A stretch of 63,574 nt of DNA, from positions 1 to 63,574 of IMG/VR virus record IMGVR_UViG_3300042400_001354. One strand, given 5' to 3'. Under the pieces are notes generated by a model. That model searched no databases, was not told the DNA's origin, and saw only the letters and a program-made list of their open reading frames with translations. Below, piece by piece: positions 17,026 through 53,631 of the stretch (its first letter is position 1; each line of letters starts with the position of its first letter). Both the position numbers and the translations under genes were made by a program. The DNA is from a virus.

Positions 17026-17027
17026 AA

Positions 17028-17711
17028 TTAAATTTGAATTGGAATTAAAAGAGTTGGTAACTCCGGATTACCAAAAGTTATATTTTTATTTACATCTGAT
17101 ACATTAAATATACTACAATATGAATCTAAAATATCTGTTATATCATATCCCATGGTTTTTAGGTTATTAATATAATTTATTTGTGTGTAATACGCAGAAT
17201 TATAATCGTCGCCAACAAATACAAAAATATCGTTATATTTTTCATAAATAATTTTACACACATCAGATCTAATAATCCCATTAGATATTTGAGGATGAAT
17301 AACTTGATCCCCTGACCCGCCAGCTTTACTACAAACTAATGGTGTTTGTAGCGTAGCTCTATCAATAAAAGGTTTATAAAAATTAGGATTTGTTGGAATA
17401 TAATCGTCTTCTATCATAAAAAAATGATTATATTTATTTTTTGATAAATTATATTTTATTGCATCATTCCAAGCGCCATACGAAAAACCAATATTTTCTC
17501 TATATAGAATATTATAGTACGATTCATATTCACGCAATTCCGTTGGATAAATCCCACTAACAACAAATGTTGGTTCTATTTTTGTAGCATCACATTCTTT
17601 TAAAAACTTAATATGCCGTTTAAAAAAGAATAATGGATCTTTTGATAATAAAGAATTACAAAAAGGGCTTAATCTAGAACCAAAATATAAAGCTACAATA
17701 TAATTAATCAT
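17028..17711 (-). CDS. Putative glycosyltransferase
   Basis: 227 residues. Contains FFMIEDDYIPT (acidic metal-site-like triplet, about residues 95-105) after GAWNDAIKYN, a GT-A-like arrangement. The C-terminus (GDDYNSAYYTQINYINNLKTMGY) matches no specific family. Overlaps the aminotransferase gene by 8 nt. Function inferred from motif and neighbours. Confidence 0.6.
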   Translation of the reverse strand: MINYIVALYFGSRLSPFCNSLLSKDPLFFFKRHIKFLKECDATKIEPTFVVSGIYPTELREYESYYNILYRENIGFSYGAWNDAIKYNLSKNKYNHFFMIEDDYIPTNPNFYKPFIDRATLQTPLVCSKAGGSGDQVIHPQISNGIIRSDVCKIIYEKYNDIFVFVGDDYNSAYYTQINYINNLKTMGYDITDILDSYCSIFNVSDVNKNITFGNPELPTLLIPIQI

Positions 17712-18780: not shown

Positions 18781-18787
18781 AATCACC

Positions 18788-19255
18788 TCAAATTGATGAG
18801 TTAAGTTTATTATATTCCATCATAATAATATTTCCATCATCATGAGTAACAATAAACCCTAATTTATTATAAATGACAAAAGCTTTAATATTCGATTTTA
18901 ATACTTCCAATTTAATTGGAAGATCAGATCCTACATTTTCTAGTAACATCTCAAACAAAATACTACCAAAACCTTTACCGCGAGCATCAGGTAATAATCC
19001 ACCTGAAATTAAATACTCTGTTGGTTCTTTTCTAATTAACCCATATCCAATAGGATCAACTATAACACCGTGTTGAATGTTATATAATAAAAACAAGTCC
19101 ATTGTATTCGGCAAATTTTTAAACCATCTTTGTTGTTGTTCTGGTGAAATATAAGAACAATCTCTAGTCATAAAATCTTTACACGAATTCCTAATTACTC
19201 TTAATATCTCAGCATCAGATTCAGTTTCAACTCTTTTAAATACTATACTCATCAT
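18788..19255 (-). CDS. GNAT-family N-acetyltransferase
   Basis: 155 residues. The acetyl-CoA pyrophosphate loop is ARGKGFGSILFE (Q/RxxGxG/A form) with a preceding GGLLPD strand and a later IKAFVIYNKLGF helix typical of GNATs. With the adjacent aminotransferase it fits N-acylation of an amino sugar nucleotide. Two in-frame ATGs at 19255 and 19252; either overlaps the upstream gene's stop. Confidence 0.85.
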   Translation of the reverse strand: MMSIVFKRVETESDAEILRVIRNSCKDFMTRDCSYISPEQQQRWFKNLPNTMDLFLLYNIQHGVIVDPIGYGLIRKEPTEYLISGGLLPDARGKGFGSILFEMLLENVGSDLPIKLEVLKSNIKAFVIYNKLGFIVTHDDGNIIMMEYNKLNSSI

Positions 19256-20229
19256 AACCTCTGCAAAAATACGTCATTGAATTGTTGCATTACTCTATCA
19301 GGAGAAAATGGGACAACAATTTGGTCTACATTATTAAATTGTTTATGTTTAACTTTCATTATGCATTCTAACAACTCATATTGATTATTATATATCATTC
19401 CATATTTCGACAATAAATTAACATTATTTTTATCTCTTCCACCACCAAACGAAATTACAGGTTTATTTAATGCTAAAAATTCGCAAATAGATAACCCAAA
19501 CGATTCTCCATCTGATCTAGCGTGTATCATAGCATCACAAGATAAAATAAAATTAATTTTTTCTTGTTTAGTTAAAATTGGATCCAAAAATTTCACATTT
19601 GGGTGATCAATAAATTTTCGCGTATTAACAAACAAAAATACTATTGTTGGATCAAACGAAACAATAAAATTTATTATTTCATATACCATTGGGATATCAA
19701 ATTGATCAAATCCACCATATCGACCAAAAATTATTTTTTCTTGAGAAATTCCAAGTTTGGGTTTAATATTAATAAATCCAGTTTGTTTCAAATCAACTAT
19801 ATGTGGAACTACAGGATAAGAACCACCGCTGGCTGTTTCTGATAACCAATGAGAAACATAAGCATATACATCACCATGCGGTTGGTAAAAATTAAACGTT
19901 GCATGAATTAAATTTCGCTTACATTCAACGATATTACCATCATTAAAACCTGCTTTTAATGTGTAAACTGTGTCACAATTTCGTTTATCTAGTTCCGATA
20001 TTAATTCCAATTTTGATTCATACTCAATAACATCAAAATTTGATTTAAATAAATTTACAATATCAGTTTTTTTTGAAAAATTTTCATCATTGCCTACAGT
20101 CAATATAGATTTATTATAACAAATAATAGAATCGTTATTTAATATTTTTTGATTGTAGTATGCATAATCAAAAATAGCTGTTGTTGTACCTCTAAACGAT
20201 AAATTATCGTGGTGAAATGCTAATTTCAT
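19252..20229 (-). CDS. GT-B-type glycosyltransferase
   Basis: 325 residues. The C-terminal half has the GT4-like nucleotide-sugar site: SCDAMIHARSDGESFGLSICEFLALNKPVISF (E-x7-E style, around residues 238-270), preceded by GRYGGFDQFDIP and a Rossmann-like DPTIVFLFVNT strand. RBS TAGGT before ATG 20229. Soluble. Another member of the glycan island. Confidence 0.82.
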   Translation of the reverse strand: MKLAFHHDNLSFRGTTTAIFDYAYYNQKILNNDSIICYNKSILTVGNDENFSKKTDIVNLFKSNFDVIEYESKLELISELDKRNCDTVYTLKAGFNDGNIVECKRNLIHATFNFYQPHGDVYAYVSHWLSETASGGSYPVVPHIVDLKQTGFINIKPKLGISQEKIIFGRYGGFDQFDIPMVYEIINFIVSFDPTIVFLFVNTRKFIDHPNVKFLDPILTKQEKINFILSCDAMIHARSDGESFGLSICEFLALNKPVISFGGGRDKNNVNLLSKYGMIYNNQYELLECIMKVKHKQFNNVDQIVVPFSPDRVMQQFNDVFLQRL

Positions 20230-25034: not shown

Positions 25035-27560
25035 CTAACTAAAAAAATCTTCAATACTATTCATTCGTTCATGAGACCAACCAACAGCCTCTAACATACC
25101 ATTTAATGGATCTAAAAATGTTTTTTCGTACTGTTTCTCGTAATCAACATACTTATCCAACCCAAATTCAGGAGGTAATCCAACTGAAAATGAAATTACT
25201 TCATTTTTTAATGGATTAGGTTTTTTCAAATAACAAAACTTAATATTCTCACCTTCACCAATATTTTCATACTTATGGTGAAGGTTTAATTCTTTAAGTC
25301 TAGTATTATATAGAATAGCTCCTTTAGTATGGATAGGACAACCGCTGGCATACAATGTTTTTGAATCACTATATTTTTCAATACCATTTACGCCACGCGG
25401 AAATGAAATTTCTTCAACAGAATAATTGTAAAATTCAGATTTAACACCGGAAACGAAATCCTGAACATCAGATTCAGTACCATTTAAGATTAAACCTACA
25501 GATTTCTTTAATTTATCTCTAATAACTTTCGGTGTTGAAGATTTAACAACTTCTAGACCCATAATTTTTAATTTAGGTTCGTTATACACAACACCTTCAT
25601 TTTCGTAAACGTTTAATGCATAACGTTTTTTGCCAGTCCAAAAACCTTTAGAACTAATCGCTTCTAATTTAAACGAAATACAATCCCGATGTACATTTGT
25701 ATACCGCTGAAGTTCATAACAACATTCATTAATGATTGGATCAATTTTTTCTCGACAAATTTTACTTAGTACAGGAATAATTTCCTTAACATCTTTATTA
25801 GAATAAAATTTATCAACAATCGACTCAAGTGTTAAATAAATTGAATCAGTATCTTGATAAATTACCCAAGGATATTGAGTTTTAAATAGAGAATTCAATT
25901 TTTTATCTACATATTCACCAACGCTGATAATAATATATCGACCAGATAAAGTTACAGCTCTAGCATTTTCTAAAGTATAATATCTAAAGAATGCATTACC
26001 TAGTGCGCCATACAAACTATTCATAGCAATTTTAAATGCCATTTGTTCGTTATTATATTTTGAGATTAAATTATGTAATCGTTTATATTCAGCTTTAGCT
26101 TCTTTTTTATCTATTTTAGAACCTTTTAATAATTCTAATTCGCTCTCATAACGCAACATTGTTGATTTTGCTTCTTTACGTTTTTTCATGTAAATATCAA
26201 TCAACTCAGGGATCACACCAACTTTATCTTTTCTATACATAGCACCATTAGCTGCTACAGTATATTCCTCAGGAAAATCGTATTCTTTATTCAGCAACCC
26301 TTTAGTTGTAATGTTACCATCAAACATACCAACAAAGGTCTCTAGGGATATGTTCCAGGTCTGCATAATACTTGGATACAGACTGGTAGCATCAAAAGCA
26401 GTAACCCACTTGTAGAATCCTGGAATTGGTTCGCGGACGAACGCTCCTTCAAACTGTTCTGATTTACTATTCTTAGATCTTGGTGGAATAACAACATTTT
26501 TAGATTTCAAATGATTAAAAATAATTGAATCCCACATACGAATTTGACTGAATACGTCACCATAATTAACTTTTGCCAAATAAGACGTAGTTAAACATAG
26601 TTCGAGCAATTTCATTTTGTCTTCAAGTTCATCTACTCTATCGCAATCGATAGTGTTATATAAGACAAATTTATTCCACCCATAAGTATAAAAATCTTTA
26701 AACGTATCAAATTCGCTATGATCTAATTTACCACAATTTAATTCAACTTGAGCAATAGTCTCTAAACGATAATTTTCTTGTTTTGTATAAGTGTATTTTT
26801 TGTATAAATCTCTAAAATCAACAACAGGAACACCAACAATTTCATAAAGAGTTGTAGCTTTACCATAATCATCTTTGGTTTTTCGTTCTTTAATACGATT
26901 CCAGGGACTTAATTCTTTAAGCCTATCTTCACTACAAATATTTTTAATTCGATTTACAAGATATTTTATATCAAATCCTTCAACATTCCACCCTGTAATA
27001 ATATCTACATTAGAACGTTTCCAGAAATCAACAAATTGATTTAATAATGAATATTCGTCTTGACATAAAATTAAATCACAATTTTCTATTGGATCTCCAG
27101 TGTATTCTCTGGACATAAATGTTGTATTGCGTTTTGTTTTCATGTTCTTCATAGTAATAAGAAGAACTTCTTCACTTGCTTGATCAGGATTAGGAAAACC
27201 AGATTGTTCTGTTGCAGTTTCAATATCAAGAACAAATGAATTAATATGATCCATACTCCAGTCAATCAGTCCAGTAAATTTATCAGAAATAAACTGGACA
27301 TCAAAACCTATATCACCATAAATTTCAAAATTATCTACATCAGCATATCGTTTAATAAAATCTCTTGTTTCACTAATACTTCCTGGTTGAATTTCTTCTA
27401 CATATTGACCGAAAAGGTTTTGCCACTCACTTTTCTTATTAGATTTCACATAAACTTTAGGCGAGTATTCTAATTTAAATTGAACTCGTCTACCGTCTTC
27501 AATTCCCTTATAAAGAATACTATTGCCTAAAATTGATACATCTGTGTAAAAATTTGACAT
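25035..27560 (-). CDS. 43: Family B DNA polymerase (T4 gp43)
   Basis: Replicative polymerase with 3'-5' proofreading, 841 residues (T4 gp43 is 898). Exonuclease motifs: LDIE (111-114), NVEGFDIKYL and YNTIDCD. Polymerase motifs: FDATSLYPSIM (motif A, about 387), KIAMNSLYGALGN (motif B) and YQDTDSIY (motif C, about 572). The C-terminus SIEDFFS resembles a sliding-clamp-binding peptide like T4 gp43's SLFDMFDF, and is strikingly like the tails of the plus-strand dioxygenase and glycosyltransferase. Immediately follows the Sm-like gene. Confidence 0.97.
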   Translation of the reverse strand: MSNFYTDVSILGNSILYKGIEDGRRVQFKLEYSPKVYVKSNKKSEWQNLFGQYVEEIQPGSISETRDFIKRYADVDNFEIYGDIGFDVQFISDKFTGLIDWSMDHINSFVLDIETATEQSGFPNPDQASEEVLLITMKNMKTKRNTTFMSREYTGDPIENCDLILCQDEYSLLNQFVDFWKRSNVDIITGWNVEGFDIKYLVNRIKNICSEDRLKELSPWNRIKERKTKDDYGKATTLYEIVGVPVVDFRDLYKKYTYTKQENYRLETIAQVELNCGKLDHSEFDTFKDFYTYGWNKFVLYNTIDCDRVDELEDKMKLLELCLTTSYLAKVNYGDVFSQIRMWDSIIFNHLKSKNVVIPPRSKNSKSEQFEGAFVREPIPGFYKWVTAFDATSLYPSIMQTWNISLETFVGMFDGNITTKGLLNKEYDFPEEYTVAANGAMYRKDKVGVIPELIDIYMKKRKEAKSTMLRYESELELLKGSKIDKKEAKAEYKRLHNLISKYNNEQMAFKIAMNSLYGALGNAFFRYYTLENARAVTLSGRYIIISVGEYVDKKLNSLFKTQYPWVIYQDTDSIYLTLESIVDKFYSNKDVKEIIPVLSKICREKIDPIINECCYELQRYTNVHRDCISFKLEAISSKGFWTGKKRYALNVYENEGVVYNEPKLKIMGLEVVKSSTPKVIRDKLKKSVGLILNGTESDVQDFVSGVKSEFYNYSVEEISFPRGVNGIEKYSDSKTLYASGCPIHTKGAILYNTRLKELNLHHKYENIGEGENIKFCYLKKPNPLKNEVISFSVGLPPEFGLDKYVDYEKQYEKTFLDPLNGMLEAVGWSHERMNSIEDFFS

Positions 27561-31396: not shown

Positions 31397-32080
31397 TTAA
31401 CCTCCAAATTTAGAGGAAGTTTCGATGGTTACCCAGTACTTCAATTCACTTGAAGTTGAAGTCCATGTTGAGATACCTTTACTAGAAATCTCAACATCAT
31501 AAGTATCAGGAATAACTTTTAGATTTTCAGTTTTAAACACCAATTTAAAAACTTTACCTTCTGGGTCGACATCAGCTAGTTCTAACGAGTTTGTATGACT
31601 AGCATCATTAGATTCATCAAAAGTCAATAAATCAACTGTAGTACCATCTGATTCAACAGCAATATGCGGAGCGCCTAATACGCTAGCAGTTTTTAGAACC
31701 CAGTCTAAATCTTCTTTTGAAAAAGTAAATTTAACATCTACTGATGGAAGATTAGGACGTTTATCTGGAGCAACTACAATCATTGATGGATCTGTAATAC
31801 GATATTTAATTTTTGAACGACCACCACGACCTTTAATAATTACATGACTAGAATCAAATTCTAATTCTGAACCTTCTTTGAACAAAGAAGTAACTGAAAG
31901 AAAATTATTTAAATCATAAATCCCGAAATCTTGAGGGATTTCTTCGCTAATAGCAGCATCAGCTAAAATATTTTTCTGAGGACTCATTGTTGAAACGGTA
32001 CTACCCTTTTTAAAGTAAATACCTTGATTGATTGTTGCAAAGTTTTTTAGGATCGCAGTTGTTTCTGGGGAAATTTTCAT
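31397..32080 (-). CDS. 45: Sliding clamp gp45
   Basis: 227 residues (T4 gp45: 228). N-terminus MKISPETTAILKNFATINQG and DFGIYDLNNFLSVTSLF match T4 gp45 closely. Trimeric ring that gives DNA polymerase its processivity and acts as the mobile enhancer of late transcription through gp33/gp55. Docking partners in this window probably include gp43, gp55 and the two plus-strand proteins at 44834 and 46227. Promoter at 32124-32152. Confidence 0.96.
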   Translation of the reverse strand: MKISPETTAILKNFATINQGIYFKKGSTVSTMSPQKNILADAAISEEIPQDFGIYDLNNFLSVTSLFKEGSELEFDSSHVIIKGRGGRSKIKYRITDPSMIVVAPDKRPNLPSVDVKFTFSKEDLDWVLKTASVLGAPHIAVESDGTTVDLLTFDESNDASHTNSLELADVDPEGKVFKLVFKTENLKVIPDTYDVEISSKGISTWTSTSSELKYWVTIETSSKFGG

Positions 32081-32159: not shown

Positions 32160-32235
32160 TGGTGGGTCTCCTGGGACTCGAACCCAGATCAACCGATTAT
32201 GAGTCGGACGTTCTAAACCTTTGAACTAAAGACCC
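32160..32235 (-). tRNA. tRNA-Met (CAT), elongator type
   Basis: Clover-leaf with acceptor GGGTCTT/GAGACCC (one G-T pair), anticodon loop CTCATAA, T-arm CTGGG-TTCGAGT-CCCAG, and encoded CCA. G1-C72 pairing indicates elongator Met, or Ile if C34 is lysidinylated. Last tRNA of the cluster. Confidence 0.93.
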
Positions 32236-32241
32236 GAAAAT

Positions 32242-32898
32242 TTATTTTTTCATTTTTCTACCTTTTATCCAATTCTCAGGTATCGGATCAGTATTTTTTA
32301 TTTTTTTATTGTCAATTCCGTTCGTTATCCAAATAGACCCAAATTGAGAATTTTTGCAACCTACTTGTTTACCAATAGCGCGTTGTTTCATTTGGAGTTT
32401 AGATTCATCAGTATGAAACTTCCCTTTAAAACTAAAATTTGGGGATAAAGTCATCTCGCCATTTTTCCAACGCTTTTTAGTGTTGTCTCTAAGTTTAATT
32501 TTGACGCTATCTATTTGATATGGATAACAAACTCCATATTTTTTTAATATAGTTTTATCAGCAGTTTTTCTAGCCAGTTTGTTTTTTGAACGCCTAAGAG
32601 TATCATTAGAATTAATATAATCCCAACCACCAAAACCGCCAATCTTCAAATTATATGTATTCTCAGTTGCTAAAAATTCTTCAGTTACAATTTCTGCTTC
32701 TTTTGAATACATATCTTCTTTGTTGTCATAAACAAAAAGTATTTCTTTTTCGAAATTTTTAATTCCATATTTTTGTTGGGCGTATTTCAGGTATTTTCCT
32801 GAACCCATATAATTATCGTCAAGATTTTTGGTCTTATGGCTTCCAATATAGAATTTGCCGTCTATCTTGTTTGAAATTTTATAAATTGTAAAGTACAT
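32242..32898 (-). CDS. GIY-YIG homing endonuclease in tRNA cluster
   Basis: 218 residues. GIY-YIG nuclease domain at the N-terminus (FTIYKISN... FYIGSHKT) with the catalytic Glu expected near KEAEIVTEE, then a basic C-terminal DNA-binding part with an IWITNGIDNKKIKN segment common in phage homing endonucleases. Free-standing, placed between tRNA-Gly and tRNA-Met. A perfect late promoter and a hairpin precede it, as for T4 I-Tev-type genes. Probably spreads the surrounding tRNA region during co-infection. Confidence 0.88.
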   Translation of the reverse strand: MYFTIYKISNKIDGKFYIGSHKTKNLDDNYMGSGKYLKYAQQKYGIKNFEKEILFVYDNKEDMYSKEAEIVTEEFLATENTYNLKIGGFGGWDYINSNDTLRRSKNKLARKTADKTILKKYGVCYPYQIDSVKIKLRDNTKKRWKNGEMTLSPNFSFKGKFHTDESKLQMKQRAIGKQVGCKNSQFGSIWITNGIDNKKIKNTDPIPENWIKGRKMKK

Positions 32899-32918
32899 AA
32901 ATTTTCTTTAAATACTTT

Positions 32919-32926
32919 TATTTATA
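32919..32926 (-). promoter_or_regulatory. T4-type late promoter for homing endonuclease
   Basis: TATAAATA on the minus strand, 21 nt before the ATG at 32898. Confidence 0.6.
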
Positions 32927-32929
32927 AAA

Positions 32930-32952
32930 GTTCGAGTTTCGATACAACTCGA
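32930..32952 (-). repeat. Hairpin between tRNA-Gly and homing endonuclease
   Basis: Perfect 8-bp stem TTCGAGTT/AACTCGAA (7-nt loop) directly after tRNA-Gly. On the minus strand it is followed by CTTTTATAAAT, so it may be a weak terminator or 3'-end signal for the tRNA transcript, leaving the endonuclease to its own late promoter. Confidence 0.55.
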
Positions 32953-32956
32953 AGGG

Positions 32957-33028
32957 AGCGAGTAAGGGGATTCGAACCCCTACCTTCAGTTTGGAAGACT
33001 GTAATGCTACCATTAACACCATACTCGC
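32957..33028 (-). tRNA. tRNA-Gly (TCC)
   Basis: Acceptor GCGAGTA/TACTCGC, anticodon loop TTCCAAA in a CAGTC stem, T-loop TTCGAAT. CCA not encoded (TCCC follows the acceptor). Reads GGA. Confidence 0.93.
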
Positions 33029-33056
33029 AATAACAATTAGAAATTATTTTAAATTT

Positions 33057-33144
33057 TGGCGGAGAGTATTGGACTCGAACCAATACATCGATTTCTCGAT
33101 GACGGTTTAGCAAACCGCTCCATTAACCGTTCTAGCAACTCTCC
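33057..33144 (-). tRNA. tRNA-Ser (GCT)
   Basis: Class II tRNA with a long variable arm (CATCGAGAAATCGATG). Acceptor GGAGAGT/ACTCTCC, anticodon loop TTGCTAA, G73, encoded CCA. Reads AGC/AGT. Confidence 0.95.
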
Positions 33145-33152
33145 AAAATGTC

Positions 33153-33226
33153 TGGCAGGGTTACGTGGGCTCGAACCACGAACGACAGAATCAAAATCTG
33201 TTGTGTTACCATTACACTATAACCCA
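33153..33226 (-). tRNA. tRNA-Gln (TTG)
   Basis: Anticodon stem ACAGA/TCTGT with loop TTTTGAT, T-loop TTCGAGC, encoded GCCA end. The first acceptor pair is T1 with T72 (unpaired); bacterial tRNA-Gln normally has a weak U1-A72, so fraying here may be tolerated. Confidence 0.92.
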
Positions 33227-33233
33227 ATTAATT

Positions 33234-33323
33234 TGGCGGAAGGTCAGAGATTCGAACTCTGGGAAGGTTTCACCCTTCAACGGTTTTCAAGACCGTCCGT
33301 TTCAGCCGCTCACGCAACCTTCC
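33234..33323 (-). tRNA. tRNA-Ser (TGA)
   Basis: Class II with a long variable arm (GAAGGGTGAAACCTTC). Acceptor GGAAGGT/ACCTTCC, anticodon loop CTTGAAA, G73 and encoded CCA. Reads UCA. Confidence 0.95.
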
Positions 33324-33343
33324 TAATTCTTTATAGACATATT

Positions 33344-33419
33344 TGGGGTGATCGGTGGGACTTGAACCCACAAAATCCTGAATCACAATCAGGGACGTCT
33401 ACCATTCCGTCACGACCAC
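33344..33419 (-). tRNA. tRNA-His (GTG)
   Basis: Acceptor GTGGTCG/CGATCAC, anticodon loop TTGTGAT in a CCTGA/TCAGG stem, C73 and encoded CCA. The base before position 1 is T, so the G-1 that bacterial HisRS needs is not encoded at the usual place. Confidence 0.92.
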
Positions 33420-33437
33420 ACCAAATAGGTCTATGTT

Positions 33438-33514
33438 TGGTACCCATGGTAAGATTCGAACTTACAACAATTGGTTTCTAAGACCAACTCCTCTACCGAT
33501 TGGGATACATGGGC
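33438..33514 (-). tRNA. tRNA with Leu anticodon (TAG), class I body
   Basis: Acceptor GCCCATG/CATGGGT (G1-T72 wobble), anticodon stem TTGGT/ACCAA with loop CTTAGAA, a 5-nt variable loop (TTGTT), T-stem GTAAG/CTTAC, A73 and encoded CCA. Anticodon UAG reads CUA (Leu), yet bacterial leucine tRNAs have long class II variable arms. Same unusual layout as the TAA tRNA at 36198. Confidence 0.88.
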
Positions 33515-33629
33515 AATAATTTTTGCTTATGTTGTTATTGTAATAACAACTCTAGTTGTGGTTTGAGAGGCATCTTATCAGAGTCGAGAAGCACTTACCC
33601 ACCATAGCATAAAGCGATACTATACATTT
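33515..33629. ncRNA. Structured gap in tRNA cluster, possible ncRNA
   Basis: 115 nt between tRNA-Leu and tRNA-Glu with no tRNA or ORF. It holds an 8-bp inverted repeat GTTGTTAT/ATAACAAC (33531-33550) and, in minus-strand RNA, a 7-bp stem AUAGUAU/AUGCUAU (loop CGCUUU), plus a CTCT/AGAG pairing. No T-loop motif (TTCRA) is found, so it is not a normal tRNA. Could be a decayed tRNA, spacer or small RNA. Confidence 0.3.
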
Positions 33630-33704
33630 TGGTATCCCGACGGAGAATCGAACTCCGATTGCATGGATGAAAACCATGTGTTCTAACCATTAAACTACCA
33701 GGAT
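33630..33704 (-). tRNA. tRNA-Glu (TTC)
   Basis: Acceptor ATCCTGG/TCGGGAT (wobbles), anticodon stem CATGG/CCATG with loop TTTTCAT, T-loop TTCGATT, encoded ACCA. Reads GAA. Confidence 0.93.
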
Positions 33705-33727
33705 AAAATTTATACAGATTTTAAAAT

Positions 33728-33825
33728 AAAAGCCATTTTCTCCATCTCTTGGAATCGAACCAAGCTCATACGGTTTAACAGACCGACCGCAACACCTTGT
33801 GCGTTAGATGGAGAAAATGGCTTTT
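33728..33825. repeat. Inverted repeat enclosing tRNA-Asn
   Basis: AAAAGCCATTTTC (33728-33740) and GAAAATGGCTTTT (33813-33825) flank tRNA-Asn. With the 7-bp acceptor stem they form a continuous 20-bp stem whose loop is the tRNA. On the minus strand the 3' side runs GGCTTTTATTTT, terminator-like. Confidence 0.75.
33740..33812 (-). tRNA. tRNA-Asn (GTT)
   Basis: Acceptor TCCATCT/AGATGGA, anticodon loop CTGTTAA, T-arm CTTGG-TTCGATT-CCAAG, G73; CCA not encoded. It is nested in a longer perfect inverted repeat (33728-33825). First tRNA downstream of the promoter at 33853. Confidence 0.92.
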
Positions 33826-33852
33826 TACATCTTATTCAATGCTAGAGCTATT

Positions 33853-33881
33853 ATTATACTATAGACTATATTAAAAGTCAA
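33853..33881 (-). promoter_or_regulatory. Sigma70-type promoter for distal tRNA cluster
   Basis: Minus strand: TTGACT (33881-33876), 17-nt spacer ending ATAG, TATAAT (33858-33853). Points to tRNA-Asn, Glu, Leu, His, Ser, Gln, Ser, Gly, Met. It overlaps the 3' end of the dNMP kinase gene. Confidence 0.8.
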
Positions 33882-34504
33882 GCATTATTTACTACAATAT
33901 CTAAAATTTTCAATTCAAGATCACGAAATGATCCATCATTCTCAACAACATGATCAACATGAGGATTACCTATCCACTCATACTCAGATTTATGTATCTT
34001 ATGTTCTAGAGCATATTTTTCCCACTGTGCAGGAATTGTTTTCATACAGCTTTCATGCCATTTCCACCAATCAGGTCGAGTTTCTGTTCTATCAACCTGA
34101 ACCAATAATGAGTTTAGAGATTTAAGAAATCTTATTTCATTATTAAATCTAACATCAGTAATAACAACATTTTCATGTTGAAGAATTTTTCGTTCTAAAC
34201 TATCAACCCATATAGTATCTATAAGGTTATTTCTACAAACTTCAGTTCCAAAAATTTGTAAAATATATCTTGGTGTAATATCTCTATTAAATTTCTCTGA
34301 CCAAAACGGATCAATTATTTCACGAAATTCTCTAGATTCTGTTGTATCACCTTCAAGTAAAGTTCTTTCCCAACCGAAAATAGCAGAAACGCTATCTTTT
34401 AAACTACCCGCAAAAGATAATGGAACAAAATTATGTTCTGTTTCTAAAATTTCACCAACAGTTCCTTTACCTGAACCGATAAAACCCAATAAACCAATAA
34501 TCAT
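33878..34504 (-). CDS. 1: Deoxynucleoside monophosphate kinase (T4 gp1 type)
   Basis: 208 residues. P-loop GFIGSGKG (7-14), then the dNMP-kinase features seen in T4 gp1 such as LSFAGSLKDSVSAIFGW, FGTEVCRN and VVITDVRFNNEI. Phosphorylates dTMP/dGMP (and modified dCMP in T4). Completes the nucleotide supply set with nrdA/B, cd and thyX. Confidence 0.88.
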   Translation of the reverse strand: MIIGLLGFIGSGKGTVGEILETEHNFVPLSFAGSLKDSVSAIFGWERTLLEGDTTESREFREIIDPFWSEKFNRDITPRYILQIFGTEVCRNNLIDTIWVDSLERKILQHENVVITDVRFNNEIRFLKSLNSLLVQVDRTETRPDWWKWHESCMKTIPAQWEKYALEHKIHKSEYEWIGNPHVDHVVENDGSFRDLELKILDIVVNNA

Positions 34505-34686
34505 AATATCACCAATTTAACCAAAATATTTCGTTTTTTCAAACGAACACTTTTAGAAAATTCTCTATCAGAGATCATTTGCTTAAATGAACCTTTATCA
34601 TACATTTTTAAAAAGTTAATTTTAGCATCTAATTCTTTTATTTCAGTATCAACAAATCGAATTTCATCAATTAAAGTTCTATTCAT
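34501..34686 (-). CDS. Small helical protein upstream of dNMP kinase
   Basis: 61 residues, charged and helical (IRFVDTEIKELDAKINFLKMY), with no known family. ATG 34686 is chosen; a longer open frame would run into tRNA-Met. Its stop overlaps the kinase start. Function unknown. Confidence 0.5.
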   Translation of the reverse strand: MNRTLIDEIRFVDTEIKELDAKINFLKMYDKGSFKQMISDREFSKSVRLKKRNILVKLVIL

Positions 34687-34707
34687 AATAAAATACCTAA
34701 AATTGGA

Positions 34708-34778
34708 AGCGGAGAGTTGGAATTGCACCAACGACCTCTAGGTTATGAGCCTAGCATTCTACTACTGAACTATCCCGC
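34708..34778 (-). tRNA. tRNA-Met-like (CAT), weak acceptor stem
   Basis: Anticodon arm CTAGG-CTCATAA-CCTAG followed by AGGTCG is initiator-like. Acceptor GCGGGAT with TCTCCGC pairs only in its first five positions (one wobble), the T-loop is TGCAATT where TTCAATT is expected, and CCA is not encoded. Possibly degenerate or an unusual initiator tRNA. Confidence 0.75.
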
Positions 34779-34871
34779 AATAATTAATCAGAACTCTTGT
34801 ATATATCTACACTTTGGTAGAAACCTAACAGGTGGCGTACAACTTTCACTGTTTATATTGTACTATTAAAT

Positions 34872-34947
34872 TGGTCTCTCTGCTTCGATTTGAACGAAGG
34901 ACAATGCGCCCCAAACGCATCATGTTACCAGACTACACTACAGAGAG
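34872..34947 (-). tRNA. tRNA-Pro (TGG)
   Basis: Acceptor CTCTCTG/CAGAGAG, anticodon stem ATGCG/CGCAT with loop TTTGGGG, A73, encoded CCA. Reads CCA. The 93 nt between it and tRNA-Met hold nothing I recognise. Confidence 0.94.
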
Positions 34948-34973
34948 ATGTTTTACATATTCGTCTATAATTT

Positions 34974-35048
34974 TGGAGCCCCACCCCAGAATCGAACTGA
35001 GATCAGATGATTACAAGTCAACTGTAATAGCCATTATACTAGAAGGGC
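34974..35048 (-). tRNA. tRNA-Thr (TGT)
   Basis: Anticodon loop CTTGTAA, T-arm CTCAG-TTCGATT-CTGGG, acceptor GCCCTTC/GTGGGGC with one T-T mismatch, T73 and encoded CCA. Reads ACA. Confidence 0.9.
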
Positions 35049-35055
35049 AAAATCT

Positions 35056-35484
35056 TTATGCTAATAAATCTTTAACTAATTTACTAGCAATTGTACCATC
35101 ATATCTACCTAAATATTCCGATTTTAATTTACCCATAATTACTCCCATTGATTTAGGAGATTTTTCAGGTAATTCAGAAATTAAATTATTTATAATTTCT
35201 GTTAATTGAATATCAGTTAGTAGTTCAGGTAAGTATTTATTATAAAGTGAAATTTCAAAATCTAAAAATTCGTTAGAACCTTTAATTTTAATAATTTCTT
35301 CAACACCAACTTTAAATTTTCTGATTACAGCAAGAACTTCTTCGTTGGTGGATTCACAATTACGTTTTGTTTTACCCACCATAGCTGCTTCAGAATAAAG
35401 AGTTGTCAATAAAGTCAACAACCTAGCATCTTTATTACGTCTAGCCGCATCTAAATCATTTCTAATTATACTCAATAAACTCAT
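35056..35484 (-). CDS. YqeY/GatB-domain-like protein
   Basis: 142 residues matching the YqeY-like fold shared with the tail of the GatB amidotransferase subunit: RNDLDAARRNKDARLLTLLTTLYSE at the start and EKSPKSMGVIMGKLKSEYLGRYDG near the end. The domain binds tRNA in GatB; the stand-alone role is unknown. Sitting between tRNA genes, it may assist tRNA charging, perhaps of Gln or Asn. Encoded between tRNA-Thr and the methyltransferase. Confidence 0.82.
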   Translation of the reverse strand: MSLLSIIRNDLDAARRNKDARLLTLLTTLYSEAAMVGKTKRNCESTNEEVLAVIRKFKVGVEEIIKIKGSNEFLDFEISLYNKYLPELLTDIQLTEIINNLISELPEKSPKSMGVIMGKLKSEYLGRYDGTIASKLVKDLLA

Positions 35485-35492
35485 AATATTCT

Positions 35493-36092
35493 CTAAGGTT
35501 TAACCCAAAACCAGCAATCATGATATGTTATTCGTAAATTTTGATTAATATCGATACCTTGTTCTTGCATAAATTCAAAAACAGCACGTTGAACTTCTTG
35601 TTTATGCCAAGAAAAATCGTGACCAGCAAAAATACCACCAGATTTCACTTTACTATAATAATTTCTAATATCTCTATTAACAGCTTCATAACTATGATCA
35701 CCATCAATAAAAATATAGTCTAACGAGTTATTTGGAATTTTATCTACAGCATCTACAGCTGTCTCATTAATAAACTCAACTCTATCATTAAATGGCGCAA
35801 TATTTTCTAAAAAAACTGCTTTAATTTTGTCGCAATGATCTTGCGACACAAAATTAGTTGGCCCATCTTGATATTCAATATAAGGATCAATAGTGTACAA
35901 TTTAGATAAATTTGGTAAATTTTCTAAAAAATAAACTACATTCGTACCAGCATAACATCCAACTTCACAGCCAATTAAATTTTCTCCATGACATCTTAAT
36001 AAAGGTATTAAACCAATAGCAGAAGTCCAAGGAATTGGCCAGTGCCCCTTTTCTTTTAAAACAGGTACACTATCAAATAAACTAATTTCCAT
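35493..36092 (-). CDS. Class I SAM-dependent methyltransferase
   Basis: 199 residues. SAM-binding EVGCYAGTN (motif I, about 43-51), acidic LYTIDPY (motif II) and LDYIFIDGDHSYEAV (motif IV region) point to a Methyltransf_24-type O-methyltransferase fold of the kind that modifies sugars or small molecules. No DNA or RNA recognition domain, so a role on glycans made by this phage is more likely than tRNA modification despite the location between tRNAs. Confidence 0.8.
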   Translation of the reverse strand: MEISLFDSVPVLKEKGHWPIPWTSAIGLIPLLRCHGENLIGCEVGCYAGTNVVYFLENLPNLSKLYTIDPYIEYQDGPTNFVSQDHCDKIKAVFLENIAPFNDRVEFINETAVDAVDKIPNNSLDYIFIDGDHSYEAVNRDIRNYYSKVKSGGIFAGHDFSWHKQEVQRAVFEFMQEQGIDINQNLRITYHDCWFWVKP

Positions 36093-36113
36093 AACATTCC
36101 CTTCAATAAAATT

Positions 36114-36190
36114 TGGCTAAGTATGCGAGAGTCGAACTCGCGATACTGCCGTGCAAGGGCAGCGTTATACCCCCACTTAACTAATTCCCC
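36114..36190 (-). tRNA. tRNA-Ala (TGC), irregular acceptor stem
   Basis: Anticodon stem CTGCC/GGCAG with loop CTTGCAC, D-stem GTTA/TAAC, T-arm GCGAG-TTCGACT-CTCGC, encoded GCCA. The acceptor GGGGAAT pairs poorly with ATACTTA (two clear mismatches and two G-T), though the G3-U70 wobble that AlaRS recognises is kept. Possibly decaying. Confidence 0.78.
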
Positions 36191-36197
36191 GAAAAAT

Positions 36198-36274
36198 TGG
36201 TACGGATGGACAGACTCGAACTATCACTTGATAGATTTTAAGTCTATTGCCTCTGCCTATTGGGCCACACCCGC
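36198..36274 (-). tRNA. tRNA with Leu anticodon (TAA), class I body
   Basis: Acceptor GCGGGTG/CATCCGT (G1-T72 wobble), anticodon stem ATAGA/TCTAT with loop CTTAAAA, 5-nt variable loop CAAGT, T-stem GATAG/CTGTC, A73 and encoded CCA. Anticodon UAA reads UUA, the main Leu codon in AT-rich DNA, but the long variable arm of leucine tRNA is missing. Confidence 0.88.
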
Positions 36275-36289
36275 ATTACTAATAAAATT

Positions 36290-36375
36290 TGGTGGGTAAG
36301 GTAGGAATCGAACCTACTCAGCCAGTGGCGCGGGATTTACAGTCCCGTGTGACTCTCCAACTTCACCGCTTACCC
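36290..36375 (-). tRNA. tRNA-Tyr (GTA)
   Basis: Class II with a long variable arm. Acceptor GGGTAAG/CTTACCC, anticodon stem CGGGA/TCCCG with loop CTGTAAA, A73, encoded CCA. First tRNA after the promoter at 36396. Confidence 0.95.
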
Positions 36376-39694: not shown

Positions 39695-40761
39695 TATTCA
39701 ACCTGCATAGCTTCATTATATAAATTAAACATCATAGTTTTTAACCTAATTTTATCTAATTCTTGGTGATTTATACTATCAATATATTTGTATGTTATAG
39801 TTAACGTATCATCAGTTTCGTCAATATCTTCTACAATTTCAAGATCAATAATTTCTTCAATTATCGAAACATCAATTGGAGAATATTGATAAACTTGATC
39901 AATAAATAAATCAAATAAATAAGGATTAGTTTTATTTTTTATCTGAATTTTTACATATTTATCAACAATACTGTGTTTAAGAAATTGTTTATCCAAATAA
40001 ACTGACTGTATCACATCAGGTTCACCAGAATCATCATATAACACTTTAGAAAAAATAGAATATGGATTTTCAATAGTTTCTAGAGTTCTAGTTTCTAAAT
40101 CATAAACTCTAAATCCTTTTTGATCATCAAAATCCTGCCAAGTTATTTCATAAGGTGTTCCGATATATTCAATATTACCACGTTTTGATGCGTGATGATA
40201 ATGACCTGACAATACTCGTTCATAATTTGAAAACGTCGCAGCAGATAATCCATGTTCAGACAAAATACTGTTTTGATACATTTTAAACCCTTCTACCTCA
40301 AAATGACCTACGCACATATGAGAAGTATCATTTTTTATGAAATCCAAACACTCAGTATAATTTTCTTTACAAATCCAGGGGATAACTGAAATATCAAATA
40401 TTTTTAATTGAGTTGGTTTTTTTATTACAGTAACATTTTTAAATTGTTTTAAAAATAATTCACTAGAACTAACTGATAAAGATTCTCGATAATAGAGATC
40501 GTGATTACCCAACAAAGTAATCAATTCTATATCCAATTCATCAAACCTAGAAAAAAAATATCTCTTTGCTTCATCTAAAGTATAATGATTACTGTATTTT
40601 CTACGATCAAAAATATCACCTAATTGTATTACAGTTTTGATATTATTTTCTATAAGATAAGGAAAAAATATATTAGTATAGAATTTATCAAAAAATTCAT
40701 GAAAATGTTGACTGTCGCATCTAGCACCTAGATGCGCGTCCCCTAGAAAAACTATTTGCAT
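39694..40761 (-). CDS. 47: Recombination nuclease subunit gp47 (SbcD/Mre11 type)
   Basis: 355 residues with calcineurin-type phosphoesterase motifs in order: GDAHLGAR, LGDIFDRR, LLGNHDLYYR, CVGHFEVEG and SGHYHHAS. Metal-dependent nuclease partner of gp46. The gene overlaps gene 55 upstream and ends at the gene 46 start. T4 gp47 is 339 residues. Confidence 0.95.
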   Translation of the reverse strand: MQIVFLGDAHLGARCDSQHFHEFFDKFYTNIFFPYLIENNIKTVIQLGDIFDRRKYSNHYTLDEAKRYFFSRFDELDIELITLLGNHDLYYRESLSVSSSELFLKQFKNVTVIKKPTQLKIFDISVIPWICKENYTECLDFIKNDTSHMCVGHFEVEGFKMYQNSILSEHGLSAATFSNYERVLSGHYHHASKRGNIEYIGTPYEITWQDFDDQKGFRVYDLETRTLETIENPYSIFSKVLYDDSGEPDVIQSVYLDKQFLKHSIVDKYVKIQIKNKTNPYLFDLFIDQVYQYSPIDVSIIEEIIDLEIVEDIDETDDTLTITYKYIDSINHQELDKIRLKTMMFNLYNEAMQVE

Positions 40762-41417
40762 TCTTCACCTATAAAATTTTCAACACCAAAAAGTTTTTTG
40801 TTTTTGGGTTTTATTGGTTTCGACGATTTTTTAAATTCAGTTTGTTCAAATTTTTGAATAAAATCGTACATATTTTCATAAACTTCCAATTGTTTAATCT
40901 GACCATCACCCAATTCTAACAATTCAGCTTCATCAAGAATACCAAAATTTTCTGTGGCTTTATATTTTATATATTGTTGTTTTTTTTCTTTTTGGATTCT
41001 ACGCACAAAACACCACCAAAGAATTTGCGTAAAATAAGCAAAAGGATTTTTAGTTTTTTCAGTGTCAAAATTTCTAAAATATGTTAGACAATTTTCTATA
41101 CCATCAGCAATCATTTCGTCTTTATACGAGTAACCAAAAAAATTAGGTCTACGTGCTAACCCCTCAGCTAATTTTATAAAACATTCACCAATATAATTTG
41201 GAATCCTTGGTTCAGGTTTCCCTGAATTTGCAGCAACAATACATTCTTCTTTGTATTTTACAAGAGCATCACAAAAATCAGCATTATTAATATAGTTTTT
41301 AGGTATTTTTTTCTTTTTAGTTTTAACAGGGATTAAGTCTTCTTCAATATCAAGTATTGAATCTAAATCAATAGTTTCTTCTTTAGGTACAGCAAATTCA
41401 AATTTTAACTCTTCCAT
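40752..41417 (-). CDS. 55: Late-transcription sigma factor gp55
   Basis: 221 residues. The core (IPNYIGECFIKLAEGLARRPNF, SYKDEMIADGIENCL, NPFAYFTQILWWCFVRRIQKEKK) matches T4 gp55, which directs host RNA polymerase to TATAAATA late promoters. The end KLFGVENFIGEE may be the clamp-contacting peptide (T4: SLDFLYE). Start 41417 has GGAG at good spacing; ATG 41429 is also open. Promoter at 41445-41473. Confidence 0.9.
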   Translation of the reverse strand: MEELKFEFAVPKEETIDLDSILDIEEDLIPVKTKKKKIPKNYINNADFCDALVKYKEECIVAANSGKPEPRIPNYIGECFIKLAEGLARRPNFFGYSYKDEMIADGIENCLTYFRNFDTEKTKNPFAYFTQILWWCFVRRIQKEKKQQYIKYKATENFGILDEAELLELGDGQIKQLEVYENMYDFIQKFEQTEFKKSSKPIKPKNKKLFGVENFIGEECK

Positions 41418-41444
41418 ACGATACTCCATGTTTAATATAACTCT

Positions 41445-44833: not shown

Positions 44834-46216
44834 ATGGTACAAGTAGTTGTATTGAAAGAAAATGAAGTAAAACCTAGACCTGATTTAGTAGGTAAATGGT
44901 TAGATCACACACATTACCACACGTTAATTGAAGATGATATAGATATTTACCTTCCACCGGACTGCGCAGACTTTACAGCTGACGAAAATTGTGATAATAA
45001 TTTAAATTGTAGCGGTTGTTTAAAGGGGTTGTCTGAAAAAAATATCGTCTTTAAATTTAGAAAAAATTTCTTTACCCAAGAAGAAGCAGATGCAGCTTAT
45101 GCTGGGTTAAGAGATGCGGCAGTAGAAACTCAAAATCGTGGTGTAGCTGGTGGACCAAGAACTGATAAATGTGGTGGTAGAGATTGGGTTACTGACGAAC
45201 AATTTGATTTGTTGGAATTTTTTGCATATAAAAATACAACCTCTATTTTTGGTGAATATAATCCAAAATCTGAAGTTAATGCAATTAAAGCAAAATACAA
45301 ATCATTAAAATCTGATGATAGTCGTGGTGTTGTTTGGTTGGTGGAACAAATTAAAGCAGAGAATTTTGTATTTAATGATTTTATTGATTTATTATGCGAA
45401 TTGTCTATTGAAGAAGCAAAAAGAAAAGCATTACACGTTTTAGATAAAATGATAAGTAAAACAACATACGCTAATGTTGTTAATTCTGGTATTGCTGGTT
45501 GGTATGATAGATATCCTAGAATACCATATGGTAGACCAACAACTTATACTAGAGATAATGCAGAAAAATTTGCTAAGGCGTATCCATTTTTGCAATCTTT
45601 ATCTAAAGGGTTTCAAGATTTGTTACCTTGGAGGTATGGAAATCAAAAACGTGCTGCAGAATCAATCGATAGTCGTTTTGTTGTACCTGGAACTCCATTT
45701 ACAACAATTACAGTAAATAAAAATTTCCGTACAGCTGCCCATTATGATCCTGCTAATATGGAAGACGGTTTTGCTAATCTTTGTGTTATGTCAAATAATG
45801 ACGCATTTAACGGATGTTATTTGGTATTTCCTGAAATTGGTTATGCAGTAAATGTTAGACCTAGAGATCTATTATTAGTAAATAATCAAGCTGGATTACA
45901 TGGAAATACTGAATTAGAATTAAAAGACCCTAATGCTGAGAGAATTAGTATGATTGCCTTTTTTCATGAAGGTATGTTAACATTAGGTTCGTACGATTAC
46001 GAAAATACTCGCAAAGAATTTATTGATAGTAGAAGATTAAATCCTGATCATCCAGAACAAAGATATCGTTGGAATGGTATTAGTCCAGGAGTATGGGAAT
46101 CAGATGAATGGATCGATTATCTATTAAATCAACCGTATGGTAAAGAGTGGTTAGAAAAATATCATCCAGATTTATTTGATCGTAGATATGGTTTTAGTTT
46201 ACAAGATTTTTTCTAA
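44834..46216 (+). CDS. TET/JBP-family 2-oxoglutarate/Fe(II) dioxygenase
   Basis: 460 residues. The C-terminal half has a TET/JBP-type double-stranded beta-helix: ITVNKNFRTAAHYDPAN gives the iron ligands H303-x-D305, CYLVFPEIGYAVNVRPRDLLL is the family's characteristic strand set, GLHGN gives H356, and ERISMIAF places R370 to bind 2-oxoglutarate. TET/JBP enzymes oxidise 5-methylcytosine or thymine in DNA to the hydroxymethyl base. The N-terminus has four Cys (DC...NC...NCSGC), a possible zinc site. The last residues SLQDFF resemble a sliding-clamp-binding peptide. Followed 10 nt later by a glycosyltransferase, forming a two-gene modification cassette with RBS GGAG. Confidence 0.85.
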   Translation: MVQVVVLKENEVKPRPDLVGKWLDHTHYHTLIEDDIDIYLPPDCADFTADENCDNNLNCSGCLKGLSEKNIVFKFRKNFFTQEEADAAYAGLRDAAVETQNRGVAGGPRTDKCGGRDWVTDEQFDLLEFFAYKNTTSIFGEYNPKSEVNAIKAKYKSLKSDDSRGVVWLVEQIKAENFVFNDFIDLLCELSIEEAKRKALHVLDKMISKTTYANVVNSGIAGWYDRYPRIPYGRPTTYTRDNAEKFAKAYPFLQSLSKGFQDLLPWRYGNQKRAAESIDSRFVVPGTPFTTITVNKNFRTAAHYDPANMEDGFANLCVMSNNDAFNGCYLVFPEIGYAVNVRPRDLLLVNNQAGLHGNTELELKDPNAERISMIAFFHEGMLTLGSYDYENTRKEFIDSRRLNPDHPEQRYRWNGISPGVWESDEWIDYLLNQPYGKEWLEKYHPDLFDRRYGFSLQDFF

Positions 46217-46226
46217 GGAATTTTAA

Positions 46227-47567
46227 ATGAAAATATTTGTAGTTATGCATGTATTTAATAATTTTGGCGGTATTATTAATCACAATGAACAATTATGTGC
46301 AGGATTAAAAGAACTTGGTCACGATGTAACCTTTGCTTTTATTAAACCAACAAAAACTCAACAAAAAGGCGAAATTGATTATGCGTTAAGAGAAGGATAC
46401 GAAATTGGCGTTGGAACTGGATATCCAGTACATCAAAGTAAAGGTTGGATTTGTCCTTATTATGCGTTAAAAAATACTGATGATATTTCTAGATTTGTTA
46501 CTGATGCAAATAAACACGATTTGGTTATCTGGCAATCTATTTTTGGGTTTAAAAATGCGGAAACAGAAAAATTTTTAGATTGGACGCCAATGGTTGAAGA
46601 TGTAACAGCAAAACAAATTGTTGTTATTCATGATGGTAATTTAATTAAAAATTATTCTTGGATTTATAAATTTCAGGATAAATTCTCTGGTCTCGCATGT
46701 GTACATCCATCTGCGGTTAAATCTGCAGAATTTATGGAAATACCCAGAAATCTTATTTTAAATCCTCAAGATTTATCTAAAACGAAAGAACCAACAGTTG
46801 AGGGAAGACAAAACCGAATTTTATCTCTGCAAACATTTAAAAGATGGAAAAGAGTTGATAATTTAGTTGCAGCTGTTCCATATATTAATGGTGAGGTTAT
46901 TGTTGCTGGTGATGGTATTGAGCGAAATTACATGACCTCAGTTGATAAATGTAAACCTGAATATTACTGTACGAAACAATTCGATCCAAACGCGGATGAT
47001 AAGAGATTAGGCAAACCGATTTGGCAAAATGCTTTGAGTTCGGGTAAATATTCGTATATTGGATTTATTACTGAAGAAAAACGAGACGAAATTTTAGATT
47101 CTTGTAAATTTTTATTAGATCCAAGTTGGTCGTTAAATTATGGGGAACATTTTAATAGAGTTCTTGTTGATGCAATGATCAATGGTGTTGTACCTATTGC
47201 TAGAAATTTCGGTGTTTCTGACAACGAAAAAGGTATTGGTGAAGTATTTAAACCAAATGAAAATTATTTAATGATTCCTCATGACGCTACACCTAAAGAA
47301 TTTGGTGATTTAGTTAATTCTTTTTTTAATATTAGTGATGAAAAATATATTGAAATTGTTTTAAATAACCAACAAAAACTTAAATCGTTTGATAGAATGC
47401 GAATTGCTGAACAATTTATAAATTTAGCTTTTGGTGCGGATGGCACTGGTGAATATGCTACGCCATTAATTGGTAGAAGTAATCCAGAAATCAAAAAAAT
47501 TGCTGATAAAATGTGGAAGGAACATTTTGAAACTGAAGAAGTGTTTAGTCTTGATAGTTTTTTCTGA
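46227..47567 (+). CDS. GT-B glycosyltransferase, likely DNA-base glycosylating
   Basis: 446 residues. The N-terminal Rossmann half opens KIFVVMHVFNNFGGIINHNEQL, like GT4 enzymes; the C-terminal half has ILSLQTFKRWKRVDNLV, YIGFITEEKRDEIL, DPSWSLNYGEHFNRVLVDAMINGVVPIA (GT4-like E-x7-E region). RBS AAGGA. Co-transcribed with the TET/JBP-like dioxygenase, so the natural acceptor would be the hydroxymethylated base in DNA. Ends SLDSFF, matching the dioxygenase (SLQDFF) and DNA polymerase (SIEDFFS) tails. Not related by eye to T4 alpha- or beta-glucosyltransferase. Confidence 0.82.
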   Translation: MKIFVVMHVFNNFGGIINHNEQLCAGLKELGHDVTFAFIKPTKTQQKGEIDYALREGYEIGVGTGYPVHQSKGWICPYYALKNTDDISRFVTDANKHDLVIWQSIFGFKNAETEKFLDWTPMVEDVTAKQIVVIHDGNLIKNYSWIYKFQDKFSGLACVHPSAVKSAEFMEIPRNLILNPQDLSKTKEPTVEGRQNRILSLQTFKRWKRVDNLVAAVPYINGEVIVAGDGIERNYMTSVDKCKPEYYCTKQFDPNADDKRLGKPIWQNALSSGKYSYIGFITEEKRDEILDSCKFLLDPSWSLNYGEHFNRVLVDAMINGVVPIARNFGVSDNEKGIGEVFKPNENYLMIPHDATPKEFGDLVNSFFNISDEKYIEIVLNNQQKLKSFDRMRIAEQFINLAFGADGTGEYATPLIGRSNPEIKKIADKMWKEHFETEEVFSLDSFF

Positions 47568-52797: not shown

Positions 52798-53631
52798 TTA
52801 TTGCCCTTTATTATATAAGTAATTCCATTCATTAAATTTAGTATTTCGCAATTTATTTTTTAAAATATCATAAGACATATGAACGCCCATATTATCTTTT
52901 ATATACTGTATGGCATCTTTCATAGAATTAAAAATACCATATGGCGTTTGTATTGTTTTACAATTATTTTTAATTTTTCTTGTGTTTGATTTAACTGTAT
53001 ATTTTTTATTTATATAAAACCAATCACTTTTATTCGGATTATTTAATTTTGAAAAAATTTTACTATAAGTTATATTTATATTTTGTTCGTTAAAATAAAA
53101 TTCTGCTTCTTTTATCGAATCAAAAACGCCATATGGCGTAGAAAGTTTTTGAGCTGCGTTGTTATTTTTTCCTGTTTGATTAACGTGTGACCTAGATCCT
53201 TTCATATTTTCTTTATGTCTTTGTGTTTTTAATATTCTTGTAAAACGTTCTTTACTAATTAAAGATTGTTTTAATTTTCTTTCCTTAGACCAAAAATCGG
53301 AAGCATTTAATACCCCATCACCACCGATAGTCATATTATAACCCATACTATTTTCTGAATTTACGAAAGTATTATATTCAATAATAAAATCATTTTCCAT
53401 AATGTTTTTTGTGTATAATTTATCTTTTGATTGATAAATTATACTAATTGTAAAATTATCCCACCCATATTTTCTTAATGATTTATAAAACACTGAATTA
53501 TATGATTTACATTTTAAATTTAAATGGCAAGTTTTATGGTCTTTTATTCTTTTTGGGTATTTAGAATCAAATCCGATATAAGATTTCCCATTTATTTTAT
53601 TTGTACATTTATATATTGTGTATATACTCAT
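52798..53631 (-). CDS. GIY-YIG homing endonuclease between genes 19 and 20
   Basis: 277 residues. GIY-YIG domain at the start (YTIYKCTN... SYIGFDSK), Arg and Glu positions expected downstream, then a basic C-terminal half with two copies of a NUMOD-like module, TPYGVFDSIKEAEFYF and TPYGIFNSMKDAIQYI, which bind DNA in other homing enzymes. Free-standing insertion in the structural module; no intron is apparent. More Asn/Lys-rich than neighbours. Confidence 0.88.
   Translation of the reverse strand: MSIYTIYKCTNKINGKSYIGFDSKYPKRIKDHKTCHLNLKCKSYNSVFYKSLRKYGWDNFTISIIYQSKDKLYTKNIMENDFIIEYNTFVNSENSMGYNMTIGGDGVLNASDFWSKERKLKQSLISKERFTRILKTQRHKENMKGSRSHVNQTGKNNNAAQKLSTPYGVFDSIKEAEFYFNEQNINITYSKIFSKLNNPNKSDWFYINKKYTVKSNTRKIKNNCKTIQTPYGIFNSMKDAIQYIKDNMGVHMSYDILKNKLRNTKFNEWNYLYNKGQ

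Follow-up and report, generated by a model that had tools for sequence, protein, structure and literature searches.

A probable sliding-clamp docking tail common to the DNA polymerase and DNA-modifying enzymes of T4-like phages

The IMG/VR virus record IMGVR_UViG_3300042400_001354 is a 63.6-kb fragment (63,574 nucleotides, 30% guanine plus cytosine (GC); hereafter the window) of a T4-like phage that carries gp43, gp45 and gp55 along with further replication and structural genes of T4 type. It contains a two-gene cassette, encoding a DNA dioxygenase and a glycosyltransferase, whose products end in a short C-terminal tail of the same type as that of the phage's own DNA polymerase. This tail is probably a docking peptide of the PCNA-interacting protein (PIP) box type for the gp45 sliding clamp, common to gp43, to gp55 in variant form and to the DNA-modifying enzymes that the phage carries, and it would serve replication-coupled thymine hydroxylation and capping. 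Tethering of both cassette enzymes to gp45 had been proposed in an initial annotation of the window. It is now well supported by comparative evidence because the tail is conserved, recurs on unrelated replacement enzymes and on gp43 and gp55, and co-occurs with gp45; the binding itself we infer.

Both cassette genes lie on the + strand and are flanked by leftward genes. The first (44834..46216, 460 aa) encodes a 2-oxoglutarate/Fe(II) DNA dioxygenase of the TET/JBP family (Pfam Tet_JBP PF12851, E=2.5e-24; phrog_24024, E=1.8e-135), with an HxD...H metal site, an arginine for 2-oxoglutarate and a TET fold. Residues H303, D305, H356 and R370 are invariant among 36 homologues, and the AlphaFold2 (AF2) model, with a mean predicted local distance difference test (pLDDT) score of 88.7, has human TET2-DNA as its top PDB fold match. 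The second gene (46227..47567, 446 aa) encodes a GT4-like glycosyltransferase of GT-B fold (Pfam Glycos_transf_1, E=2.7e-8). Fold matches of its AF2 model (mean pLDDT 89.1) include GT4 enzymes and, lower in the list, T4 alpha-glucosyltransferase (1y6f, 1xv5). This last likeness is at fold level only (template modelling score about 0.57, 10-12% identity): the Pfam scan gives Glycos_transf_1 and matches neither the T4 alpha-glucosyltransferase family (AGT, PF11440) nor the TET-associated glycosyltransferase family (TAGT, PF20691). Among isolated phages the glycosyltransferase has no match.

The dioxygenase ends ...RRYGFSLQDFF (SLQDFF plus stop, 46196..46216, + strand) and the glycosyltransferase ends ...EEVFSLDSFF (SLDSFF plus stop, 47547..47567, + strand). 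The family-B DNA polymerase gp43 (25035..27560, - strand, 841 aa; phrog_262, E=1.6e-294) ends ...HERMNSIEDFFS, so that its tail SIEDFFS plus stop (25035..25058, - strand) is the counterpart of the C-terminal PIP box of RB69/T4 gp43 (PMC3012046). These three C-termini are exactly as initially annotated. A fourth tail had been overlooked: the late sigma factor gp55 (40752..41429, - strand, 225 aa; phrog_234, E=6.4e-56) reads FGVENFIGEECK at its C-terminus, with GVENFIGEECK plus stop at 40752..40787 (- strand), and the C-terminus of T4 gp55 is a sliding-clamp epitope (PMC2988020). Relatives have gp55 tails such as GIETFLED, GLESFLED and GVEKFMEE. The proposed docking partner, gp45 (31397..32080, - strand, 227 aa), also retains its original assignment, with matches to PF09116 (E=9.7e-11), PF02916 and phrog_223 (E=2e-70) and phmmer matches to the T4/RB69 gp45 structures 1czd and 1b77 (E about 1e-24 to 1e-23). 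Genes in the sugar-related region of the window (13792-20229) are without the tail.

Such tails have well-described counterparts. T4 gp43, gp55 and gp33 bind gp45 through similar and interchangeable hydrophobic-acidic C-termini carried on divergent linkers (PMC2988020), and the RB69 gp43 PIP peptide, defined as Qxxhxxaa, has been crystallised on gp45 (PMC3012046). SLQDFF and SLDSFF contain the PIP core h-x-x-a-a with adjacent acidic residues; like the T4 gp55 tail, they do not have the Q with which the eukaryotic PIP box begins. They share with the T4/RB69 tails the position, the pattern and the short hydrophobic-acidic peptide on a divergent, flexible linker, whereas the carriers known so far act in replication and transcription rather than in base modification. 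In both AF2 models the last block has low pLDDT (66 in the dioxygenase; 55, the lowest of the model, in the glycosyltransferase) and forms a short helical turn, which, as expected, would fit a peptide that folds on binding.

Conservation of the tail was examined in an IMG/VR sample of 30 dioxygenase and 71 glycosyltransferase loci, later enlarged with TAGT and ADDT (amino acid:DNA transferase) loci, with homologues counted as distinct C-terminal 60-mers, some of them as little as 30-35% identical to the window proteins. The consensus is [S/T/G/N]-L-[D/E]-x-[F/L]-F, optionally followed by one or two residues. It is present in 38 of 39 distinct glycosyltransferases and in 79 of 84 distinct dioxygenases (81/84 if YF is counted); among the five exceptions two end SLEDYFT or SLEEYFT, where Y stands in for the first aromatic of the motif, two end LDI and one has no tail. 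The conservation check suggested for the initial annotation thus came out in its favour. Alignments anchored at the right-hand end show L/I (34/34) or L/F (33/33) at position -4, D/E at position -3 with a single exception, and F throughout at position 0; the residues immediately ahead of the motif vary. The tails combine an exposed end, with low pLDDT in the last block, and a divergent linker. Codons for the tail differ both between and within families; it is therefore the peptide, rather than a DNA element, that is constrained.

In a 30% GC genome, F and L codons are abundant at gene ends, and compositional bias or chance could be invoked for the tails. When random tails were generated from the proteins of the window, 0.85% of draws matched a loose pattern (C-terminal hydrophobic-x-x-[FLM]-F-x0-2) and 0.06% a strict version. 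The loose pattern does arise by chance in about 1% of open reading frames (ORFs), and a baseplate-like protein of relatives does end IFDFFI. Across six contigs (the window, G009, G033, G002, G005 and G007), with the polymerase and gp55 set aside, the pattern occurs in 12 of 13 modification genes compared to 7 of 644 other ORFs (Fisher p = 5e-20, a value that overstates independence because the six contigs are related). Together with deep conservation across unrelated families and divergent codons, this leads us to reject chance, which is so improbable as to be negligible. Moreover, a PhixxF[F/L] scan of a 126-kb relative (G009) returned five of 140 ORFs: gp43, gp55, the dioxygenase, TAGT and the baseplate-like protein. 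The tail is otherwise nearly confined, genome-wide, to gp43 and gp55, whose T4 counterparts bind gp45. The baseplate-like protein (G009:32255-32980; homologues in G002, G005 and G033) has a CxxCGF motif near its end, and in several relatives its last residues are IFDFFI or GLNDFFT, resembling a clamp tail; it was considered as a clamp partner and rejected as probably structural. A 180-aa P-loop kinase with the ambiguous ends NSFLF and IEQFFK was left out of the counts.

The strongest argument for docking is that the same tail occurs on non-homologous replacement enzymes. In relatives that lack the GT-B gene, the dioxygenase is followed by a different enzyme that is also tailed. Some of these replacements match TAGT (PF20691; L012, L026 and L103), a family with the tail in 18 of 18 distinct sequences (DLDSFF, SLESFFG, TLEEFFA and others). 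ADDT (PF18724), encoded a few genes beyond, has a tail in 60 of 60 distinct sequences, mostly in a single-aromatic form GLExF that resembles the GIETFLED and GLESFLED ends of gp55 in relatives, and all 31 dioxygenases adjoining ADDT genes have the full tail. Because this C-terminal hexapeptide is common to unrelated families and to the phage's own polymerase, common descent of the enzymes is no explanation. The same cassettes also encode a GNAT-like protein (L021:6993-7658) ending PSLEEFLR and a 417-aa protein (L019:7887-9140) that weakly resembles DNA methylases and ends IGLEKFM; both are candidates for further clamp-docked modification enzymes.

Tails of the enzymes tend to follow that of the polymerase in the same genome. 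In G018, polymerase and dioxygenase both end TLEGFFS. G041 is of the LF type throughout (polymerase TLEDLFS, dioxygenase SLEDLFQ, glycosyltransferase SLEDLFG), and in Cr30 the polymerase ends DLSSLFD and the TAGT DLSKLF. The agreement is imperfect, as in G033, where the polymerase is FF and the enzymes are LF. Presence of the clamp gene gives a further comparison. Among isolated phages, a search for gp45 (phrog_223) was positive for DLP6, C48C1, Cr30 and Melnitz and negative for nine more, and tails occur on five of six TET/TAGT enzymes from gp45-encoding phages versus none of 13 from those without it (p = 0.0005, in a small sample of partly related phages that are not all independent). In this sample the tail occurs only where the clamp is encoded. 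Tailed cases are the TET and the TAGT of Stenotrophomonas phage DLP6, C48C1, the Cr30 TAGT and, as a loose case, Melnitz (NLNDFLGE); dioxygenases of the gp45-less phages Altadena, Klevey, S-CBWM1, HTVC112P and P12024L are without a tail.

Several observations weigh against clamp docking. The dioxygenase of Caulobacter phage Cr30 ends GATLF and fails the pattern despite the presence of gp45; the 3' end of this gene (L105:6001-7329) extends into the beginning of the gene that follows, and its tail seems eroded. Two dioxygenase lineages (L086 and L091) end LDI, with no aromatic pair. The window is an incomplete genome. The binding pocket of RB69 gp45, formed by Tyr39, Ile107, Phe109, Trp199, Val217, Arg32 and Lys204 (PMC3012046), is only partly kept in the window gp45: in a low-identity alignment read by eye, three of five hydrophobic positions remain hydrophobic (Leu39, Leu111 and Trp216 stay), and no similar residue lies opposite Trp199 or either of the two basic residues. 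This weak pocket conservation counts against the clamp reading, although the window polymerase must use the same clamp. The partial pocket, together with the fact that gp45 binding of the tails is deduced from sequence, would also suit docking to some other common partner, such as the gp32 single-strand binding protein, the modification enzymes themselves or a host protein. Such a partner is improbable, because the same tail is found on gp43 and, as a variant, on gp55, whose T4 counterparts grip gp45 in this way, and because it is missing from TET/TAGT enzymes of phages without gp45.

Precedents exist for modification enzymes on a clamp. The initial annotation knew of no described clamp-tethered phage DNA modification, but one exists: binding of T4 alpha-glucosyltransferase to gp45 was reported by Sommer et al. 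(2004) and found again in a pull-down repeated in 2026, and T4 beta-glucosyltransferase does not bind (PMC13216743). Like the window glycosyltransferase, for which it is a fold match, the T4 alpha enzyme is a phage DNA-modifying GT-B protein, and it binds its own sliding clamp. Unlike the window enzyme, it has no C-terminal PIP-like tail and ends FCFKEQFDIITK (a sequence matched to T4 records at 100%), so it was rejected as a carrier of the same tail. It also works on 5-hydroxymethylcytosine (5hmC) incorporated from the nucleotide pool, whereas in the window the hydroxyl-making dioxygenase is tailed as well. The phage operons that combine TET/JBP with TAGT (PF20691) have the same order of dioxygenase and sugar transferase, and the window dioxygenase is a TET/JBP member; in contrast, the window transferase is GT-B and not TAGT, and dioxygenases of gp45-less phages lack the tail. 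Eukaryotic Dnmt1 on PCNA (PMC9690074) is likewise a base-modifying enzyme placed on a PCNA-type ring at newly replicated DNA, but enzyme and organism differ and its role is maintenance methylation rather than hypermodification. In the literature searched, which fell short of most subscription papers, no earlier description of a clamp tail on a TET, TAGT or ADDT enzyme of phages was found, and T4 alpha-glucosyltransferase was the only phage modification enzyme reported to bind a clamp, a contact whose relevance is now questioned. The T4 precedent lessens the claim to novelty; what appears new, judging from the sequences, is that at least four unrelated families of modification enzymes carry a portable tail for docking on gp45.

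If the tails bind gp45, its trimers, either those loaded at the replication fork or those that stay on the new DNA after the fork has passed, would hold the enzymes by a flexible C-terminal tether and raise the local concentration of dioxygenase and transferase on freshly replicated DNA. The dioxygenase would hydroxylate the 5-methyl group of a pyrimidine in this DNA, most likely converting thymine to 5-hydroxymethyluracil, and the transferase would then cap the hydroxymethyl group with a sugar. The three sites of a gp45 trimer may give room for polymerase, hydroxylase and transferase together. Modification right behind the fork would be plausible. The tails could instead bind gp45 with no fork coupling, either by loading the enzymes on any leftover clamp for processivity or by competing with gp55 in late transcription. 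T4 gp45 is also a late-transcription activator that gp55 and gp33 grip through the same kind of tail (PMC2988020), and the contact between T4 alpha-glucosyltransferase and gp45 does not set the glucosylation pattern, since the share of the alpha enzyme is determined by promoter and translation strength (PMC13216743), a finding that likewise tells against a replication-coupled role. We nevertheless regard the uncoupled alternative as rather unlikely, because a transcription role for the tail on TET, GT-B, TAGT or ADDT is not obvious and because the cassette swaps enzymes yet retains the tail.

The substrate is probably thymine. A C5-methyltransferase was looked for without success in the window, in the complete genomes of DLP6, C48C1 and Cr30 and in 18 related contigs of IMG/VR, none longer than 197 kb, and a thymidylate-synthase-family gene was found in Cr30 only. 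Relatives carry ADDT and a P-loop kinase, which are enzymes of thymine hypermodification pathways. Thymine is likelier because of both the lack of a C5-methyltransferase in the searched set and the presence of these two enzymes. Cytosine would be the substrate if a methyltransferase encoded outside the window made 5-methylcytosine, which would be oxidized to 5hmC and glycosylated, a route that is compatible with clamp tethering. The TET2 fold match of the dioxygenase suits this route, as does phage Melnitz, an exception in which an HhaI-like C5-methyltransferase adjoins the TET gene. Set against the enzyme inventory of the relatives, cytosine appears unlikely.

Elsewhere in the window, fourteen tRNA genes (32160-36375, - strand) lie between gp45 and the gp46/47 region and are interrupted by small ORFs; a GIY-YIG-like gene among them (32242-32898) probably encodes a homing endonuclease, as does a second GIY-YIG-like gene (52798-53631, - strand; MSIYTIYKCTNKINGKSYIG...) between structural genes.

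In Nonlabens phage P12024L, which lacks gp45, a glycosyltransferase-like protein (L108:4604-5362) ends QLEIF and a DNA methyltransferase (L108:5364-5999) ends QQTLF, and both genes adjoin the tail-less TET gene. These ends resemble the host beta-clamp motif QLxLF and possibly reflect the same tethering idea applied to the host clamp. More broadly, and as a tentative proposal to which we give somewhat less than even weight, T4-superfamily phages may use a general, enzyme-independent docking code in which a gp45 tail is acquired by every enzyme of post-replicative DNA modification that joins the cassette (TET/JBP, GT-B, TAGT or ADDT). One three-slot trimer would then carry polymerase, hydroxylase and capping enzyme together, and bases would be hypermodified in the course of replication without a pool of modified deoxynucleoside triphosphates, and phages that rely on the host beta-clamp may use QLxLF tails likewise, as with QLEIF in P12024L. 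If gp45 docking is borne out, replication-coupled base modification becomes a likely broad strategy of T4-like phages, and the gp45-type tail would be a simple signature for spotting unrecognised DNA-modifying enzymes in phage genomes.
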